Of a DNA stretch of 35,703 nt, positions 20,949-35,703 are shown piece by piece. The DNA is taken from assembly GCA_903906135.1 (NCBI GenBank), contig CAIVJE010000166.1:1-35703 (forward strand). The letters are read 5' to 3'. This stretch comes from an uncultured Verrucomicrobiota bacterium. Its GTDB lineage: Bacteria > Verrucomicrobiota > Verrucomicrobiia > Opitutales > Opitutaceae. How positions within the stretch are numbered: the first letter of the stretch is position 1; each line of letters opens with the position of its first letter. Both the position numbers and the translations under genes were made by a program. Under the pieces are notes generated by a model. It was not told the DNA's origin and did no database searches. It saw only the letters and a list, made by a program, of their open reading frames with translations.

Positions 20949-20973
20949 TCGGTCCTAGAAAATTTTAGGCCGA
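20949..20973. terminator. Possible shared hairpin between convergent genes
   Basis: The sequence TCGGTCCTA at 20949-20957 can pair with TAGGCCGA at 20966-20973, with one bulged T and an A/T-rich loop. It lies between the Pit stop and the SNF2 stop and overlaps the latter. The A/T loop (GAAAATTT) leaves no proper T tract outside the stem, so the terminator call is weak. Confidence 0.3.
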
Positions 20974-23541
20974 TGAGATGACCGGAGCCGATACCGGAGT
21001 CGGGGGAACGGCGAGCACCGCATTGAGTTGCTCGGCTTCACCGGTCTCAACGGCGCTGAGCTGAATCAAGCTGTGCAGCGAATTGAAATGCTTTGCCCAT
21101 TCAAAATCACCGCCATGCCCATCGATGACCTGATTAAAGAGCTGCTTCTTCTCGACCTTAAGCGCCTGGATGCGCTCTTCAATGGTGCCCGCGGTAACCA
21201 TGCGGTAGACGAACACCGTATTCGTCTGGCCAATCCGATGCACGCGGTCGATCGCTTGATCCTCCACCGCCGGATTCCACCAGGGATCGAGCAGGAAAAC
21301 ATAGTCGGCCGCATGCAAGGTAATGCCCGTGCCGGCCGCTTTAAGACTAACGAGCATGGCGGCGGCGCCTTGCGCGGTCTGAAAATCTCGCACGGGCTTC
21401 TGCCGATCAACCGTCATGCCCGTAATTTCATAACGGGGTAATTCTGGGTAATGCTGAATGAGGGCCGCGCGGACCCGGTCCAGCAGAGTAACAAATTGTG
21501 AAAAAATCACGACCTTGTGGCCACTCCCCACCACCTCGGCTAATTTTTCAATCAGCAGCTGCAGCTTGCCGCTGTCCGTCAGCGGAGAATTTAACCACGG
21601 CAGCAAATCTGGGTCACAACACACCTGCCGCAACCGGGTCAGGAGCGCGAGAAATCCAAATGATTTTTCCCGCAAGGCCAACCCGATGTCCTCGCCCAGC
21701 CGCGCTAAACCTTCCGTACAAATACGGGCATACTCGGTGCGCTGCACATCGGTTAGCGGACACAATAAATCCATTTCCACTTTGGGCGGCAGCTCTTTGG
21801 CTACTTCATTTTTTGTCCGCCGCAGAATAAAAGGCGCGACCTGCTTACGCAGCCGATTCATCGTGCCTTCGCGATCATGCAGTAAAGCGGCCTCAAAAGC
21901 CGTGCGTGAGCCGAGCAGACCGGGGAGCAAATAACGGAAGATCGACCAGAGATCGAGTTGCCGGTTTTCTAGCGGCGTACCCGTGAGCACTAAACGGTGT
22001 TGAGTGCGGATAGCGAAACAGGCCTGCGTTACTTTAGCGTCAGGATTTTTAATAAACTGACCCTCATCAAGAATCGCGTAGCCAAATTCTAGGCCATCCA
22101 GGAGCGACCGATGCTTGCGGAGTTGCGTATAGCTCGCGAGCCAGATGCAGGGCGCTGGGTTGGTCTTGAAATCATTACCTGATTTTAGCGTGTCGATCTT
22201 GGCACTGGGATAAAAGCGGGCCAACTCCTCTCGCCAGACCGGCACCACGCTCGCTGGGCACACCACCAAATGCCGCCGGCCCAACATCGGCCGGGATTCC
22301 AGCAAGGCGATAACTTGGGCGGTCTTGCCCAAACCCATCTCATCGGCGAGCAGGCCGTGACACTCCGTCTCGCACAAATGGTGCATCCACTCCACTCCAC
22401 GGCATTGATATTGGCGCAAAAATTCTGGGAGCGCCGGTGGCGCCGGCGATGGTGATAAAACTTTCTGCCGCCACGCGTCGAGCTCTGTGCCGAGTGTAAC
22501 TTTGATGCGGTTGTCGTTGAAGAGGGAGAAAATTAAATAAGGAGGAATTGTCCCATCAATAGAAGTTTCCTCAAAATTGCGGCGCCATTGGTTAAAGCTC
22601 TCCCACTTTTCCGGCGTCATGGTGACGATGCCTAAATCGGGCAAAAGCATGGGCGTCCGCCCATGCTTCAGCAAAGCCGCCGCTTGTTCCTCTGTTAGGA
22701 GCTTTTCACCCGCCCGGAAAATCCAGCGCAAATTGAGTCCGCCGCCGCTGTGGCGATCTGCCACGGCCTCAATCTCAATCACCCGTGCACCCTGCTTGAG
22801 ATTGCCAACCTTCACATCGAGTTCGATCGCGAATTGCTTTTTCCAGTGGGGCAAGAGGTCACGGAGAAAGCCGGGAATATCACTGAGCGCATCGAGCGCG
22901 TAAGCGTGGGTGCTTTGGTTGTAACGGAAGTGAGCCTTTCGCGCATAGGTCGCCAGCGCGATGAGCTTGGCCCGCTCAGCTGCCGTCGGATGGTTTAAGG
23001 TATTGCCGAGCGCCGGGATCCGGCTGCGCCCTTGCTTCCAGTAAGCGAGAAAAACCAATCCGTCTGCCGTCGTGGTGAAACTTAAGAGCAGATCCCGCGG
23101 GGGCTGATTAGGATCATGCTTAGGGGTGGATGGGTTACTAACCGCACCGTGACCGTTGGTCCCCTGACCCACGCTCGACTTGGCCGATGTCCTCGGCAGC
23201 AGCGACGCGATTTCATCAACCAATAATTCTTCAATCTCATGCAACCCGGCCACCGCGATGGCGTGAGCTAAGCTTAAGTCAGTTGACGAGGACCGCACCT
23301 TGAGTTCCTCCCCGTCCCACTCGATGACCGCATATTCTTCGCGTTTCTCAACCTTGCGGTGAATAATGGCATCCTTCGCGCCCAATTCTACTTCGCGGAT
23401 CTCGCCGTTACGATACATCTCATGACCGCGCTCTACTTGAGTCGCGTCAAAATGCCCCTCCCAGTCGGCCTCAAGGCGGCCGAACCAGAATTCGAGCGAT
23501 TGCGGAGTATAGATACGCTTGGGCCCGTGGGTTTGCATCAA
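20965..23541 (-). CDS. SNF2-family DNA-dependent ATPase/helicase with degenerate SWIM domain
   Basis: This 858-residue SNF2/Rad54-like double-stranded DNA translocase has its helicase core from about residue 375 to 815. Walker A is DEMGLGKT (400-407). Walker B is LDEGQ (491-495), DEGQ rather than the usual DEAH/DEAQ. LTGTPLENR (519-527), FSQF, and the motif VI region AIDRVHRIGQT near 760 follow. The N-terminus (about 20-105) has the SWIM layout, with FDATQVERGHEMYRNGEI followed by YAVIEWDG and SLAHAIAVAGL. The zinc-binding CxC and CxH positions hold Ser, Ala and His, so zinc is probably not bound. The middle (150-350) is a family-specific SNF2 N-terminal region. Bacterial members are associated with transcription recycling or repair; the role is not certain here. 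Confidence 0.9.
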   Translation of the reverse strand: MMQTHGPKRIYTPQSLEFWFGRLEADWEGHFDATQVERGHEMYRNGEIREVELGAKDAIIHRKVEKREEYAVIEWDGEELKVRSSSTDLSLAHAIAVAGLHEIEELLVDEIASLLPRTSAKSSVGQGTNGHGAVSNPSTPKHDPNQPPRDLLLSFTTTADGLVFLAYWKQGRSRIPALGNTLNHPTAAERAKLIALATYARKAHFRYNQSTHAYALDALSDIPGFLRDLLPHWKKQFAIELDVKVGNLKQGARVIEIEAVADRHSGGGLNLRWIFRAGEKLLTEEQAAALLKHGRTPMLLPDLGIVTMTPEKWESFNQWRRNFEETSIDGTIPPYLIFSLFNDNRIKVTLGTELDAWRQKVLSPSPAPPALPEFLRQYQCRGVEWMHHLCETECHGLLADEMGLGKTAQVIALLESRPMLGRRHLVVCPASVVPVWREELARFYPSAKIDTLKSGNDFKTNPAPCIWLASYTQLRKHRSLLDGLEFGYAILDEGQFIKNPDAKVTQACFAIRTQHRLVLTGTPLENRQLDLWSIFRYLLPGLLGSRTAFEAALLHDREGTMNRLRKQVAPFILRRTKNEVAKELPPKVEMDLLCPLTDVQRTEYARICTEGLARLGEDIGLALREKSFGFLALLTRLRQVCCDPDLLPWLNSPLTDSGKLQLLIEKLAEVVGSGHKVVIFSQFVTLLDRVRAALIQHYPELPRYEITGMTVDRQKPVRDFQTAQGAAAMLVSLKAAGTGITLHAADYVFLLDPWWNPAVEDQAIDRVHRIGQTNTVFVYRMVTAGTIEERIQALKVEKKQLFNQVIDGHGGDFEWAKHFNSLHSLIQLSAVETGEAEQLNAVLAVPPTPVSAPVISSA

Positions 23542-30236: not shown

Positions 30237-31208
30237 GTGTCCGAATCCAAAACGCTCCGTTACCCCAACGCCCGCCACCTGCAACAGCTGTATTGTGGCA
30301 GCGAGGACAATCTCTTACTCGTTGAGCGCGCTCTTAACGTGCGGCTGATCACCCGGGATGAATGGCTGAAAATCGAAGGGCTGCCGACCGCGATGGACCG
30401 AGCTGAAGAGTTTTTTACGCTGCTTAACGGCGGGCGCACGCAGGGCCTCACCTTACGCACGCCCGATTTCATCCGGCTCCTCGAACTGTATCTTCATGAT
30501 GGCGGCACCAGCCTGCGCGCGCTGTTTACGGAACCACTGGTAATCACGACCAATCGCAAAAGCGTGGTCCCTAAAACCATCGGCCAAAAGCTTTACCTTC
30601 AAGCCATCCAAAAAAATCCGGTCGTATTTGGTATCGGTCCAGCGGGCACGGGTAAGACCTACTTAGCCATGGCCGCTGCAATTTCAGCTCTGCTGCAAGG
30701 CCAAGTTCAACGAATCATCCTAACCCGCCCAGCCGTTGAGGCAGGCGAGACACTCGGCTTCCTCCCGGGAGATCTGCGCGAAAAAATTCTACCCTATCTG
30801 CGACCACTCTACGACGCCTTACACGATATGCTCGACCCCGAAGATGTGGTCACCTTATCCGAAAAAGGCGTAATTGAAATTGCCCCCCTCGCTTACATGC
30901 GCGGCCGCACCTTAGCCAATGCTTACATCATCCTCGACGAAGCGCAGAATACCACCCCCGAGCAAATGATGATGTTCCTCACTCGTTTGGGTGATGAATC
31001 GCGCATGATTGTCACTGGTGATATTACGCAAATTGACCTCCCACGTAATAAACCCTCCGGATTAACCCAGGCTCCGCGCGTATTAAAAAATATCCCAGGG
31101 ATTGAATTTCATACCTTTACCTCCTCGGACGTCGTGCGCCATCCGCTGGTGCAAAGAATTATCGAAGCCTATGAGCACGCGAAAGGCACCGACGACCGCA
31201 GCCCATGA
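30237..31208 (+). CDS. phoH: PhoH-family ATPase
   Basis: PhoH is a cytosolic P-loop ATPase, related to the helicase domain of superfamily 1, usually found with ybeY and linked to RNA metabolism. It has 323 residues from GTG 30237. The N-terminal part (about 1-100) is the KH-like region of the long PhoH/PhoL form. Walker A is GPAGTGKT (134-141). Walker B is ILDEAQNTTPEQMMMFLTR, and the late GDITQIDLPRNKPSGL is the family's third landmark. The stop overlaps the ybeY start (ATGA at 31205-31208), which supports translational coupling and a shared function in RNA maturation. Confidence 0.94.
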   Translation: MSESKTLRYPNARHLQQLYCGSEDNLLLVERALNVRLITRDEWLKIEGLPTAMDRAEEFFTLLNGGRTQGLTLRTPDFIRLLELYLHDGGTSLRALFTEPLVITTNRKSVVPKTIGQKLYLQAIQKNPVVFGIGPAGTGKTYLAMAAAISALLQGQVQRIILTRPAVEAGETLGFLPGDLREKILPYLRPLYDALHDMLDPEDVVTLSEKGVIEIAPLAYMRGRTLANAYIILDEAQNTTPEQMMMFLTRLGDESRMIVTGDITQIDLPRNKPSGLTQAPRVLKNIPGIEFHTFTSSDVVRHPLVQRIIEAYEHAKGTDDRSP

Positions 31209-31741
31209 GTTCACCGGCTAATTCAGCTCGTACCGTCGCCATCCGCAACGCCCATCCGCAATTGCGCTTGGCCCGCCCCGCCATCACCGCGGCGATCGCC
31301 ATCCTGGATCAACACGCGGCGCGCTTCCTCGGCGGCTGTCCGCCCGGCGAATTATCACTGGCGTTCCTCACCGACCAATCACTCGCGAAAATTCATGCCG
31401 ATTTCATGAACGACCCAACTGCGACCGATGTCATCACCTTTGAAGGCGATGCCGCGGCTGGCCTCGCTGGGGAAATTTGCGTTTCGGCTGACACCGCCGC
31501 CCGTTTTATACGACTCAAGTCAAGCGGTCCGCAAACTTCTCGGCGCCAGGCGAAGCTAACGGCTGGACCAACCCCGTTCGCAGAGGAGCTGATGCTTTAT
31601 GTGGTCCACGGTTGGTTGCATCTGGCCGGTTATGATGACCTCGAGCCGGCTAAAAAACGCCGAATGCGGGCGGCCGAAACGCGCGCGATGAAATTGCTGC
31701 GGACGGCTCAAGCTGTGCCGGCTTTTAAGTTAATCCGCTAA
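31205..31741 (+). CDS. ybeY: rRNA maturation RNase YbeY, with altered third metal ligand
   Basis: YbeY is a zinc-dependent endoribonuclease needed for 16S rRNA 3' processing and ribosome quality control. It has 178 residues. The core NDPTATDVITF (69-79) is intact. The metal site HGWLHLAGYDD (135-145) has His135 and His139, but the third His of the usual HGxLHLxGYDH is Asp145. A similar Asp is seen in some other phyla, so activity is likely kept. A short extra loop (105-122) precedes the metal site. It directly follows phoH with a 4-base overlap. Confidence 0.92.
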   Translation: MSSPANSARTVAIRNAHPQLRLARPAITAAIAILDQHAARFLGGCPPGELSLAFLTDQSLAKIHADFMNDPTATDVITFEGDAAAGLAGEICVSADTAARFIRLKSSGPQTSRRQAKLTAGPTPFAEELMLYVVHGWLHLAGYDDLEPAKKRRMRAAETRAMKLLRTAQAVPAFKLIR

Positions 31742-31836: not shown

Positions 31837-32499
31837 ATGCCTACCACCCGCCTCACTACGCTGCGCAATGCCTTTCTCACAGGGCTGCTCTTGCTCGCAC
31901 CGCTCGTCGTCACGGTTTGGGCTTTTCTCAAAATCATTGATATCGTAGGGGGAAGTTTCCGGCCACTTTTTGATACGCTCATCCCGCACGGCTTGCAGGA
32001 TATTCCGCTGGTCTGGGAAATGGCGGTCACGGTGGTAGTCTTTGCCTTGGTCACACTGTTCGGACTGATCTCCCATTATTTTTTTGGGAAATACCTGCTC
32101 GATCTCGGTGAACGGCTGATCCTCGCTATCCCCGGTCTCAATACCGTTTATAGCTCAGTCAAACAGCTGGTCTCCACCTTCGGATCCCAAAATCGAAATC
32201 TCTTCAGTCGCGTCGTTCTGGTGCAATATCCACGGCATGGCGTGTGGACGCTCGGTTTTCTCACGAACAAAACCCAAGCAGAGGCGCAGACCCGCGCCGA
32301 CCGTGAACTCTGGTCCGTCTTTATCCCCACTTCACCAAACCCGACCAGCGGCTTTATGCTATTCTTCCCGCCAACCGAAATCATCGAGCTAGAAATGTCT
32401 GTCGGCGACGGTATGAAAATGGTGATTTCAGGCGGTGCGATGATTCCTGCCTGGCCGGAGGCCGAGCGCGCTCAAGCTGAGCTGAAAGCTAAAGTCTAA
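31837..32499 (+). CDS. DUF502 membrane protein
   Basis: This 220-residue protein of the DUF502 family has two transmembrane segments. They are about 14-33, LTGLLLLAPLVVTVWAFL, and about 60-80, MAVTVVVFALVTLFGLISHYF. A cytosolic domain with the family motif RLILAIPGLNTVYSSVKQL and the SGFMLFFPPTEIIELEMSV segment follows. The function of the family is unknown; it is widespread and often next to repair or RNA genes. The gene lies 95 bases after ybeY and 34 bases before the RecO-like gene. Confidence 0.9.
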   Translation: MPTTRLTTLRNAFLTGLLLLAPLVVTVWAFLKIIDIVGGSFRPLFDTLIPHGLQDIPLVWEMAVTVVVFALVTLFGLISHYFFGKYLLDLGERLILAIPGLNTVYSSVKQLVSTFGSQNRNLFSRVVLVQYPRHGVWTLGFLTNKTQAEAQTRADRELWSVFIPTSPNPTSGFMLFFPPTEIIELEMSVGDGMKMVISGGAMIPAWPEAERAQAELKAKV

Positions 32500-32533: not shown

Positions 32534-33151
32534 ATGCTTGGTCAACAGCTCCAAACCGAGGCCTTTATCCTCGCTAAGCAGCCCTCAGGTTCCGATTCGT
32601 TTGAGCAGTTGACGGCCTTCTCCCGCTTGCAGGGTATCTTGCATTGTTTACGACGAATCAGTCAGAGCAAAACGGCGCTCACGCCTCTCGACCTATTTGA
32701 CGAGGCTGAACTTTGGCTCGAATCCACCAACCAAGGTCGCACGTGGTTCATCAAGGAGCACCGCTTCATCCAGCGCGAACCTGGCATCGGCCGATCCTAT
32801 GAAACCCTCCGCGCCGCCGCCGCCCTCGCCACGCTCGTCAGCCGTAACCCCGTAGCTGACGAATCTCGCGCGGCCGTCGCTAGCTTACTCCGATCCAGCC
32901 TAACCGCGCTCGGGGCCGGTGGCCGACCAGATATTATCTGGCTCAAGACACTCTTCTGTTTTCTCCGCGATGAAGGCTACCCCGTGAAACAACAGTGGTG
33001 GCTAGAACTCTCCACGAGCGAACGTGAGCTCGCGGCTACCCTCATCAATCAACCCCTCGCCGCCCAACTAGCCACTCCCGAGGCCGTCGCCGTAATCATC
33101 CGCCGGCTCGAGGAATGGATGCAGCGCGAAACGGAAGTGCGCGTGGCGTGA
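32534..33151 (+). CDS. recO: RecO-like DNA repair protein
   Basis: This is a 205-residue protein whose N-terminus (TEAFILAKQPSGSDSFEQL followed by FSRLQGILHCLRR) resembles the OB-fold start of RecO. It is followed by the LDLFDEAELWLE strand and a helical C-terminal domain (about 90-200) like the RecO C-terminal bundle. RecO anneals single strands and, with RecR, loads RecA onto SSB-coated DNA. The protein is shorter than typical RecO (about 240) and has only two Cys, so the zinc-finger of some RecO proteins is absent. The match is by pattern only and remote. Its stop is 9 bases before the nuclease-helicase gene, so the two are probably cotranscribed, which fits a repair role. Confidence 0.55.
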   Translation: MLGQQLQTEAFILAKQPSGSDSFEQLTAFSRLQGILHCLRRISQSKTALTPLDLFDEAELWLESTNQGRTWFIKEHRFIQREPGIGRSYETLRAAAALATLVSRNPVADESRAAVASLLRSSLTALGAGGRPDIIWLKTLFCFLRDEGYPVKQQWWLELSTSERELAATLINQPLAAQLATPEAVAVIIRRLEEWMQRETEVRVA

Positions 33152-33160
33152 GCTAGCCCC

Positions 33161-35703
33161 ATGGAGTTCTCCCTCGAACAGAAAACGGCCAGCCTAAGCG
33201 TCGGCGATTTCGCCAGCTTTACCCTCGGGCCCCAATCAGCTGTCGGCGGCCCCCAAGGCATCGAGCGCGCCCAACTAGGCCAACAATGGCACCAAACATT
33301 ACGCCGTCAGGTCGAACAAGAATTCACGATCGATGGCACGCTGCGCGCAGACGTGCAATTTGAGACCGCAATTAGCGGTCAACTGGTGCACCGCGGTTGG
33401 ACCTTTCTGCTCGCCGGTCGCATCGATCAGATAATCGGACGCACCTTGCGGGAAATAAAAAGTGTTACCCAGCGCCTCCCCGCTGACGAGGCTACGCTGC
33501 GGGCCGACTACCCCAGCTATTTTCGCCAACTCGCCGCTTACCTGGTGCTCGCCCGCACGACCGCGCTGCCGCAGAACCCATTAAAGACTGCCCTCGTTAA
33601 CCCTGGCGACCGCCCAACCCAGCCTGCGCCACTTCGGGCCGAACTCATTTTTGTCGAAACCAGTTCGGGGCTGACCCAAACAATCGCGCTAACCCCGTTC
33701 GACGAAGCGCTCATCTATCATCAGCTGGATGCGCTCGTCGAATTCCTAAATCTGCGCGCCCGCGCCACCGAGCGGCGCCGCGGCTTGGATTTTCAGCCGG
33801 CCTTTACGACCCTCCGCTCAGGACAGGAGAATATCCAAAAAGATCTAGCCGCCGCCTTTGCCGACCACGGCGGCGCCCCCAGCAAGGAGCGGATCTCGAG
33901 AAAAATTCTTTTTTTCGAAGCCCCCACAGGCTATGGCAAAACTGGCTGCGTGCTCGAATTCGCTCTCACCCAGCTGCGGGCGGGACATTTCGCTCGTCTC
34001 ATCTGGCTCACCGGTAAAGCCACCGGCCAATTGCAAGTGGTGCACACCCTTCAGCAGATGACCACCCCGAGAGAGCATAACCAGTCAGGCCACCAGACCC
34101 CTTTAGCTTTCTGGCAAGTGCGGAATAAATCGGAGCACTGCGTTAATCATACTTTTCACTGCGTGCGCGATGGCTGCGATTATCTCGCCGGGGCCCCCGA
34201 ACGGTGGGCGCAGAGCGGCCTGGCCAAATTTTATCGCGATGACCAACAACCGCGTGACCTCGATTACCTCCGCACGGCCGGCCGCGAGGCGCGGATTTGT
34301 CCCTATGAAATAACCCGCACCGCTCTGGCTTTTCAAGATGTCTGGATTGGCGATTTCAATTATGTCTTCGCCCCCGGTAATCGTGGAGTTTTTTTTGATC
34401 AACCCGGCTTTAATCCGGCGGAGACGCTGTTAATTATCGATGAGGCCCACAACCTGCCCTCGCGGGTGGCGGGAGCCTATTCCCACCGCGCCAATGAGCG
34501 AACGGCTCGCCTCCTCTTGGTTGAGCTCGAGCATTTACAGGCCCCCGCACCTTTGGGGCAGGCCATCGAGGATTGGATCATGTTGCTCGCCTCCCTCAAA
34601 CCGGCGGAATCGCTGGACCATGCGCTGGAAGATGAAATTCACGAACTCATCGCCCGCGTAGCCAATTTAGTTAGCACGCTCCCGCTAGACTATGCTGCGC
34701 TTGGGCCCCAGCACGCCGAAGCTCTTTGGCAATTTGCCGCCCTAGGCGACTTTCTAAATGATCGCACCTTAACAAAATTGCTCTGGGTGCCCCGGGAGGG
34801 TGAGCTCGAGTTTACCTGCGTCGATGCCGCTCCGGCCATCGGTGATACGCTCAGAAAATTTGGCGGCGCAATCCTGATGTCAGCTACCCTGCAGCCCTAC
34901 GATAATATCGCCGCGGCTTGTGGACTAACAGGCGAAGACGAGCCGGCAACGGCGGCCATGATGAATCGCAATTTATCAGCCAATCCTCCCCCGCCTTATG
35001 CCACCCTGCACGCGCCCACCCCCTGGCGCGCGGGCGCCTATGACATCGCCGTGGATCTGCGCGTTGAGACGACCTACAAAAAACGCGCCAGTCACTATGG
35101 CACGACGGCCGCCACGATTGAGACCCTGCACGCGGCCGCCACCCGGATCTCGGCCTTTCGCGCCCAACCCGCCGCGCTCGTGGCCGTCGCCATTTTCTTT
35201 CCCTCCTACGCCTACGCTGAAGCCGTCCTCCGCGCGCTGGAGCAAAGTGGCTCCGTGCTGCGCGTGGCCTTGCAACCCAAGTTACCTGACCTCGCCGCGC
35301 AATCAGCTTGGGTGGAAGAGAGCCTCAAGCTGGCCGACGCCCTTTTCCTGGTTCTCGGCAGTAGTTTCGCCGAAGGCATCGATCTCCTCGGCGGACGAGT
35401 TACGCATGCGATGGTCGTAGGCCCAGCCTTGCCCGAAGTTAATGCGGTGCAAAAAGCCCGACTCGCGGCGCTAGCAGGGCTCGGGCGCGAAGCGGCTTTT
35501 CGCCACGTCTATCAAATTCCTGGCCTGCAGAAAGTGAATCAAGCGCTCGGCCGACTCGTGCGGGCGCCAGGGCAACACGCCAAAGTTTTGCTGCATTGCT
35601 GCCGTTTTGCGGAGCCGAGCTACGCGGGACTCCTCGCGACCGACTACCAAATGTTCACGGAAATTGCCGCTGAGGCTGAGCTGCTAAATTGGCTCCACCA
35701 AAC
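33161..35703 (+). CDS. PD-(D/E)XK nuclease fused to XPD/DinG-like Fe-S helicase, 3' end outside window
   Basis: An open frame of at least 847 codons runs off the right edge. Residues about 35-200 hold a RecB/Cas4-type nuclease: motif I His44 in LGQQWH, Asp89 in AGRID, Glu98 and Lys100 in REIKS, and the QxxxY motif Gln123/Tyr127 in RQLAAY. The superfamily 2 helicase follows: Walker A APTGYGKT (254-261), DEAH (427-430) in IIDEAHN, SATLQ, GSSFAEGIDLLGG and the motif VI region NQALGRLVRAPG. Between motifs Ia and II, Cys327, Cys334, Cys339 and Cys380 can hold a 4Fe-4S cluster as in XPD/DinG/Rad3. The protein should unwind DNA 5' to 3' and cut single strands. It lies in a likely operon with the RecO-like gene. 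Confidence 0.88.
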   Translation, partial: MEFSLEQKTASLSVGDFASFTLGPQSAVGGPQGIERAQLGQQWHQTLRRQVEQEFTIDGTLRADVQFETAISGQLVHRGWTFLLAGRIDQIIGRTLREIKSVTQRLPADEATLRADYPSYFRQLAAYLVLARTTALPQNPLKTALVNPGDRPTQPAPLRAELIFVETSSGLTQTIALTPFDEALIYHQLDALVEFLNLRARATERRRGLDFQPAFTTLRSGQENIQKDLAAAFADHGGAPSKERISRKILFFEAPTGYGKTGCVLEFALTQLRAGHFARLIWLTGKATGQLQVVHTLQQMTTPREHNQSGHQTPLAFWQVRNKSEHCVNHTFHCVRDGCDYLAGAPERWAQSGLAKFYRDDQQPRDLDYLRTAGREARICPYEITRTALAFQDVWIGDFNYVFAPGNRGVFFDQPGFNPAETLLIIDEAHNLPSRVAGAYSHRANERTARLLLVELEHLQAPAPLGQAIEDWIMLLASLKPAESLDHALEDEIHELIARVANLVSTLPLDYAALGPQHAEALWQFAALGDFLNDRTLTKLLWVPREGELEFTCVDAAPAIGDTLRKFGGAILMSATLQPYDNIAAACGLTGEDEPATAAMMNRNLSANPPPPYATLHAPTPWRAGAYDIAVDLRVETTYKKRASHYGTTAATIETLHAAATRISAFRAQPAALVAVAIFFPSYAYAEAVLRALEQSGSVLRVALQPKLPDLAAQSAWVEESLKLADALFLVLGSSFAEGIDLLGGRVTHAMVVGPALPEVNAVQKARLAALAGLGREAAFRHVYQIPGLQKVNQALGRLVRAPGQHAKVLLHCCRFAEPSYAGLLATDYQMFTEIAAEAELLNWLHQ

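Follow-up and report, generated by a model that had tools for sequence, protein, structure and literature searches.

A predicted EndoDinG-type nuclease-helicase encoded directly downstream of a probable divergent recO gene in Opitutales

The nuclease-helicase gene and its domains

The window, meaning the whole stretch of 35703 bases analysed here, covers contig C166 from end to end; the genome to which it belongs is 2.8 Mb in size and assembled in 228 contigs. At its end lies an open reading frame on the + strand that runs from an ATG at 33161 to a last full codon at 35701, with no stop inside, and that encodes a nuclease joined to a helicase (hereafter the fusion). As the window is the complete contig, the stop codon lies outside it. 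The nearest homologue is 848 aa long and 89% identical, and about one residue of the protein is therefore missing. The truncation of this frame at the contig end was absent from the original prediction, which had been made from the sequence without database searches. The features in this part of the window are listed below.

30237-31208, + strand: PhoH-like ATPase (PF02562, E 9.5e-95)
31205-31741, + strand: YbeY rRNA maturation RNase (PF02130, TIGR00043)
31837-32499, + strand: DUF502 membrane protein (PF04367, E 8e-34), separated by 34 bp from the RecO-like gene that follows
32534-33151, + strand: most likely a divergent RecO, 205 aa, ending 9 bp before the fusion gene (hhalign probability 97.1, E 5.1e-11)
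33161-35703, + strand: nuclease-helicase fusion, predicted to be of EndoDinG type, 847 aa with the frame open through the contig end (848-aa homologue)
33182-33805, + strand: PD-(D/E)XK nuclease domain, approximately residues 8-215 (PF12705, 23.4 bits; H44, E68, D89, E98, K100, Q123, Y127)
33923-33943, + strand: Walker A motif PTGYGKT, residues 255-261, in helicase domain 1 (G257, G259, K260 and T261 invariant)
34139-34300, + strand: predicted Fe-S motif, Cys 327, 334, 339 and 380, shared with 9kqh and with six distant homologues
34439-34450, + strand: DEAH box, residues 427-430, read from the sequence and invariant
35186-35635, + strand: C-terminal helicase domain PF13307, residues 676-825 (Pfam E 3e-19)

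Elsewhere in the window, a gene for an SNF2-type helicase of 858 aa occupies 20965-23541 on the - strand. When the fusion gene was compared with that of the 89% identical homologue, the differences fell mostly at third codon positions (77, 43 and 311 at positions 1, 2 and 3, respectively), with dN of 0.064 and dS of 0.81 by the NG86 method. The fusion gene is under purifying selection.

The N-terminal 215 aa, scanned alone, matched PDDEXK_1 (PF12705) with 23.4 bits, which exceeds the cut-off of 22; in a Pfam scan of the full-length fusion at E up to 0.01, PF12705 was not listed. For the assessment of conservation, the window protein was aligned with 26 homologues to give 27 rows, leaving aside three copies of included rows (L001, L031, L032), two proteins cut by contig ends (L019, L026) and a 770-aa protein matched end to end (L013). 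At E up to 0.01, 8 of the 27 full-length proteins matched PF12705 directly. Residues H44, D89, E98, K100 and Q123 are identical in all 27, and Y127 in 26, in agreement with the expectation that the nuclease motif residues would be conserved among homologues. A further residue that had not been listed, E68, is also invariant (27/27), and may correspond to the EndoDinG 'E residue at the N-terminus of beta 2' in the part of PMC11981726 that deals with this subgroup. All seven nuclease residues, together with the four Cys, are kept in each of the six distant homologues compared, which come from records of a plasmid collection (Listeria, Paenibacillus, Legionella, Acetoanaerobium, Enterococcus and Cupriavidus), and all eleven residues are likewise kept in L013.

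The helicase part of the fusion was recognised by Pfam as Helicase_C_2 (E 3e-19) and DEAD_2 (E 9.8e-12), and both families (PF13307 and PF06733) were matched by all 27 aligned proteins. NCBIfam returned Rad3/DinG-type models, every one of them far under its cut-off. Across the 27 rows, C327 is present in 24, C334 in 25, C339 in 23 and C380 in 27, with all four in register in 23. Two proteins (L024, L027) have just three Cys in the Fe-S region, and two others have four (L028) or five (L030), not all in register. In the three rows that lack C327 (L024, L027, L028), the adjacent H326 is retained, which suggests that it may serve as an alternative ligand there; these three proteins may have altered their ligand set or lost the cluster. 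The window protein itself carries the four Cys characteristic of EndoDinG proteins, and a Fe-S cluster is predicted for it.

The AlphaFold runs were shallow because their input comprised only the window sequences and those of related loci. The full-length model of the fusion, built from three sequences, had a mean pLDDT of 31.3 and was uninformative, and the fold assignment therefore rests on Pfam and on a sequence match to 9kqh described below. Pfam, the conserved residues and 9kqh_A all agree with the original prediction of a RecB-superfamily nuclease and a Fe-S XPD/DinG-like helicase in a single polypeptide. Its residue numbers (H44, D89, E98, K100, Q123, Y127, C327, C334, C339 and C380) were correct, and the Pfam search that it had proposed placed PDDEXK_1 above its cut-off in the N-terminal part and found PF13307 and PF06733 in 27/27 proteins.

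Relationship to known nuclease-helicases

An 'EndoDinG' subgroup of DinG-like proteins has been described by Cheng 2025 (PMC11981726). In the portion of that paper concerned with the subgroup, its members are given an N-terminal PD-(D/E)XK domain with conserved H/E/D/E/K residues, XPD-like motor domains and a Fe-S CCCC motif. The example is a protein of Bdellovibrio bacteriovorus, for which endonuclease activity is mentioned as unpublished data, and section 3.7 offers just a general guess at a role in repair and replication. The word stem 'verrucomicrobi' does not begin any word of its main text, and a RecO neighbourhood is unmentioned in section 3.7. Among the matches listed in a literature search on EndoDinG, only this paper concerns it, and a search from 2024 onwards for a Bdellovibrio DinG endonuclease-helicase returned it alone. 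The fusion resembles EndoDinG in carrying H44, E68, D89, E98 and K100 (27/27), PF12705 at the N-terminus, a Walker A motif, a DEAH box and Helicase_C_2, a likeness drawn from the domains and motifs described for the B. bacteriovorus protein. As judged by these features, the window protein is an EndoDinG-type enzyme, an architecture already in print, and its RecO-linked position hints at the repair pathway in which it may act. The earlier statement that no characterised function was known was nearly right, although the architecture had already been named and an endonuclease activity had been mentioned as unpublished data (PMC11981726, as far as its treatment of the subgroup goes).

A profile of the 27 sequences matched the PDB chain 9kqh_A, a 'DNA 5'-3' helicase' of 748 aa, with an E-value of 1.6e-76 over positions 7-781 of 801. 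The alignment spans the nuclease domain, in which the two share H, E, E-x-K and Q-xxx-Y, and it also pairs the four Cys. The differences are that 9kqh_A is about 100 aa shorter than the fusion and carries Ala where the fusion has D89; no mention of the entry code was found in the literature searched. The Ala, which could be natural or an engineered mutation, is compatible with a nuclease that has decayed into a DNA-binding domain and leaves the work to the helicase alone, an explanation that is nevertheless very improbable for the fusion, given catalytic residues that are invariant in 27/27 proteins (Y127 in 26/27) and kept in six distant homologues.

Dna2 is an SF1 helicase with a Fe-S cluster in its nuclease domain. 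It shares with the fusion the presence of a RecB-type nuclease and a helicase on one chain, but the helicase of the fusion belongs to SF2 (DEAD_2 and Helicase_C_2, XPD-type) and its Cys lie within the helicase. Membership in Dna2, with its SF1 helicase, was rejected because the fusion carries an SF2 XPD-type helicase. The suggestion that the protein follows a Dna2-like logic with another helicase superfamily is borne out by DEAD_2 and Helicase_C_2, which define an SF2 helicase of XPD type.

Two other combinations of a nuclease with a helicase were considered. In ExoDinG, represented by DinG of S. aureus and B. subtilis, a nuclease also precedes a DinG-type helicase; however, that nuclease is a 3'-5' (DEDD) exonuclease in the passages of PMC12345164 and PMC12525004 that treat it, whereas the fusion has PD-(D/E)XK. 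No exonuclease family was listed for the fusion, PDDEXK_1 being found instead, and assignment to ExoDinG was rejected. The UvrD-Cas4 fusions join a PF12705 nuclease to a helicase, as the fusion does, but theirs is an SF1 3'-5' helicase, and they are located mostly beside Type III restriction-modification genes according to the section of PMC5704561 that covers them. The same portion of that study of Cas4-like nucleases reports SF1 UvrD fusions and a link with COG1205 helicases, and the terms 'DinG' and 'Rad3' are absent from its text.

The label 'Cas4', which formed part of the original prediction, does not hold. The window protein is devoid of Cys in residues 1-215, where the 26 others have 0 to 3, and the family scan of the N-terminal part returned PDDEXK_1 and a weak Colicin_E5 match only, with no Cas4 family reported. 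As its nuclease domain is without Cys, the protein is not to be called Cas4.

Distribution of the fusion and linkage to a RecO-like gene

The gene at 32534-33151, immediately upstream of the fusion, had gone unnoticed as a relative of recO. The window's own upstream protein gave no RecO match in Pfam, and its genome has no match to the RecO model TIGR00613 at E up to 10. An alignment of 22 upstream proteins (a 78-aa piece in L021 was omitted) was compared by hhalign with 15 RecO proteins of the phylum, consisting of matched stretches from 14 of 20 RecO loci and a protein from genome G059, and gave a probability of 97.1 and E 5.1e-11 over 143 columns. Within this alignment, 5/22 proteins matched RecO_N with E-values no higher than 1, the lowest being 0.00028, and one matched RecO_C (0.0029). 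In other members of the phylum, among them G118 and G110, where TIGR00613 is over its cut-off, the upstream-gene profile recovers recognised RecO genes, and weak TIGR00613 matches (E 5.8e-4 to 0.38) land on exactly the RecO-like gene in G024, G093, G026 and G141. The shallow AlphaFold model of the RecO-like protein (pLDDT 57.2) yielded no match in Foldseek with an E-value of 0.001 or less, with a Campylobacter RecO at rank 26 (E 0.52), and a PDB profile search with the alignment returned no RecO. On the strength of the profile comparison and the weak TIGR00613, RecO_N and RecO_C matches, the upstream gene is most likely a divergent RecO. It is the only RecO candidate seen in its own genome. 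A sample of 288 genomes drawn from the phylum includes 43 of the order, and all 43 have a RecO-like gene. TIGR00613 was over its cut-off in none of 13 genomes of the order (best E 5.8e-4) versus 38 of 83 other sampled genomes; as judged by these sequence comparisons, RecO has diverged so far in the order that its gene escapes the standard RecO model.

Homologues of the fusion had been predicted in related genomes, and in the same phylum sample, which leans on a few families, they were found in 39 of the 43 genomes of the order (23/25 in the window's own family and 16/18 in other families), with RecO-like genes retained in the four genomes of the order that lack the fusion. There were no matches in the same class outside the order, and 16 matching genomes elsewhere in the phylum, many of them with partial or weak matches. 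Of the nearest 57 genomes, 44 match, but for those that belong to other families of the order the count is just 11 of 20. When the order was sampled evenly by family, with a completeness of 90% or more required, the fusion was present in 28/44; eight of the 16 genomes without it are 1.3 Mb or smaller, and two families lack it in all sampled members despite genomes of at least 2.5 Mb (f2, 3/3; f16, 2/2). Given 23/25 in its own family, 11/20 in other families and 28/44 in the balanced sample, the fusion gene is near-fixed in its own family, and across the order as a whole it is common without being universal. A description as core in Opitutales was ruled out by the latter two counts.

Searches of mobile-element collections returned 14 plasmid-collection and 16 phage-collection records with matches to the fusion, and viral contigs gave at least five loci, with partial helicase matches only (25-26% identity) among the matches listed. 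Two 'plasmid' records with Listeria homologues (H1, L080) resemble pieces of chromosome, one being 2.9 Mb long and the other having transporter, regulator and phosphatase genes as neighbours, and these two therefore provide no evidence of mobility. On a conjugative plasmid of Legionella sainthelensi (L082:3839-7817), the gene of the homologue shares an overlap with one that encodes a GIY-YIG nuclease, and umuD and a Y-family polymerase gene lie nearby.

A role in anti-phage defence, in which the protein would unwind and degrade foreign DNA, had been offered as an option. The best PADLOC match was the CRISPR typeIV_DinG model (E 7e-59), and the uneven presence across the order (28/44) and the Legionella homologue adjoining a GIY-YIG nuclease gene on a conjugative plasmid also fit defence. 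However, the PADLOC match covers the helicase part alone (213-825), and no Cas family was found among the 25 window neighbours scanned (all but a few ORFs of the window, with the downstream side of the fusion beyond the contig), for which reasons the type IV CasDinG label was rejected. The neighbours with a recognised family are mostly housekeeping (arginyl-tRNA synthetase, PhoH, YbeY and tryptophan synthase). Together with near-universal presence in the window's own family (23/25), if less even presence order-wide, and with the small size (1.3 Mb or less) of 8/16 genomes without the fusion, as expected under gene loss, this makes defence an improbable function.

Conservation of the neighbourhood across Opitutales, which had been proposed as a check, was found in part. 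Both genes occur in 39 genomes of the order. In 22 of these, the RecO-like gene lies no more than 1.1 kb upstream of the fusion on the same strand; three further pairs are within 7 kb (25/39 in all), and the genes are apart in 14, of which three are far off on the same contig and 11 are on different contigs. These are raw genome counts that ignore phylogeny, and all 22 close pairs come from one order and most from one family. The close pairs account for 18/23 genomes of the window's own family and for merely 4/16 of other families of the order, the latter count standing against a RecO link. Examined by locus, a RecO-like gene lies upstream in 22 of 29 (L002-L030), and among the seven without one, three are cut by a contig end nearby and one has only 513 upstream bases. 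Close pairs at L028 and L030 belong to two further families. In genomes with a split pair, three of the four recO loci inspected keep DUF502 together with the RecO-like gene, and ten neighbours of the fusion gene scanned in other genomes gave no DNA-repair family match. The run of PhoH, YbeY, DUF502 and RecO genes may be a housekeeping operon, with the fusion gene merely behind it.

Outside the order, recO was on another contig or far off in 10 of the 11 phylum genomes tested (of 16 with a match to the fusion), which likewise argues against a RecO link. Assuming initiation at the first ATG, a 249-aa RecO frame in G059 (L122:149-3414) overlaps the start of an 840-aa fusion by a few bases. Its RecO_C match is above the cut-off (43.2 bits against 22.1), RecO_N (17.7 bits) and TIGR00613 (44.3 bits) are both under theirs, and the fusion has PDDEXK_1 above cut-off. 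The overlap suggests translational coupling.

These patterns bear on a possible RecO-independent role, to which we give appreciably less than an even chance, whereby the protein would process replication forks or flaps in the manner of DinG/YoaA, its nuclease trimming the product, and the proximity to RecO would reflect a shared operon position. Such a role fits the membership of the helicase in the DinG/XPD class, the separation of the genes in 14/39 genomes of the order, and Listeria and Enterococcus homologues with no recO annotated within 4 kb in incomplete gene tables. It is at odds with same-strand linkage within 1.1 kb in 22/39 genomes and with the overlapping recO-fusion pair of G059, outside the order.

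Possible place in RecO-linked repair

The genome of the window encodes RecR and a RecJ over its cut-off (RecJ matches occur in 42/44 genomes of the order), as well as AddA/AddB-like ORFs under curated cut-offs and a YoaA/DinG-like paralogue whose best match is YoaA (480.8 bits, cut-off 680). Replacement of AddAB or RecJ by the fusion was rejected, as AddA/AddB-like ORFs and RecJ are present in the genome. Given the presence of these genes, the fusion adds to them and does not replace them.

The favoured reading, held tentatively and at close to an even chance, is that the fusion combines an EndoDinG-type 5'-3' Fe-S SF2 helicase with a RecB/EXO5-like nuclease and processes gaps, flaps or ends in RecO-linked repair. 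What the sequences show is the two domains, their conserved active-site residues, the purifying selection, the near-universal presence in the window's own family and the recurrent position behind the RecO-like gene; the substrate and the contact with RecO are inferred. The motor would load onto the single strand of a gap, flap or resected end and, with a polarity taken by analogy from the XPD/DinG family, would travel 5' to 3', while the nuclease would cleave the strand emerging from it. The DNA trimmed or cleared in this way would let RecO, with RecR, load RecA or anneal strands, and the fusion would act alongside AddAB-like enzymes and RecJ. In a stronger form, which is unlikely, the Opitutales fusion would be the dedicated partner of the divergent RecO and the bacterial equivalent of Dna2, preparing single-stranded DNA and passing it straight to RecO as mediator, in parallel with AddAB and RecJ.

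Helicase-nuclease enzymes determine how broken or gapped DNA is trimmed ahead of recombination. The recurrent linkage of the fusion to recO, including the overlapping pair of G059, therefore provides a concrete hypothesis, namely that the fusion would show epistasis and physical contact with RecO.
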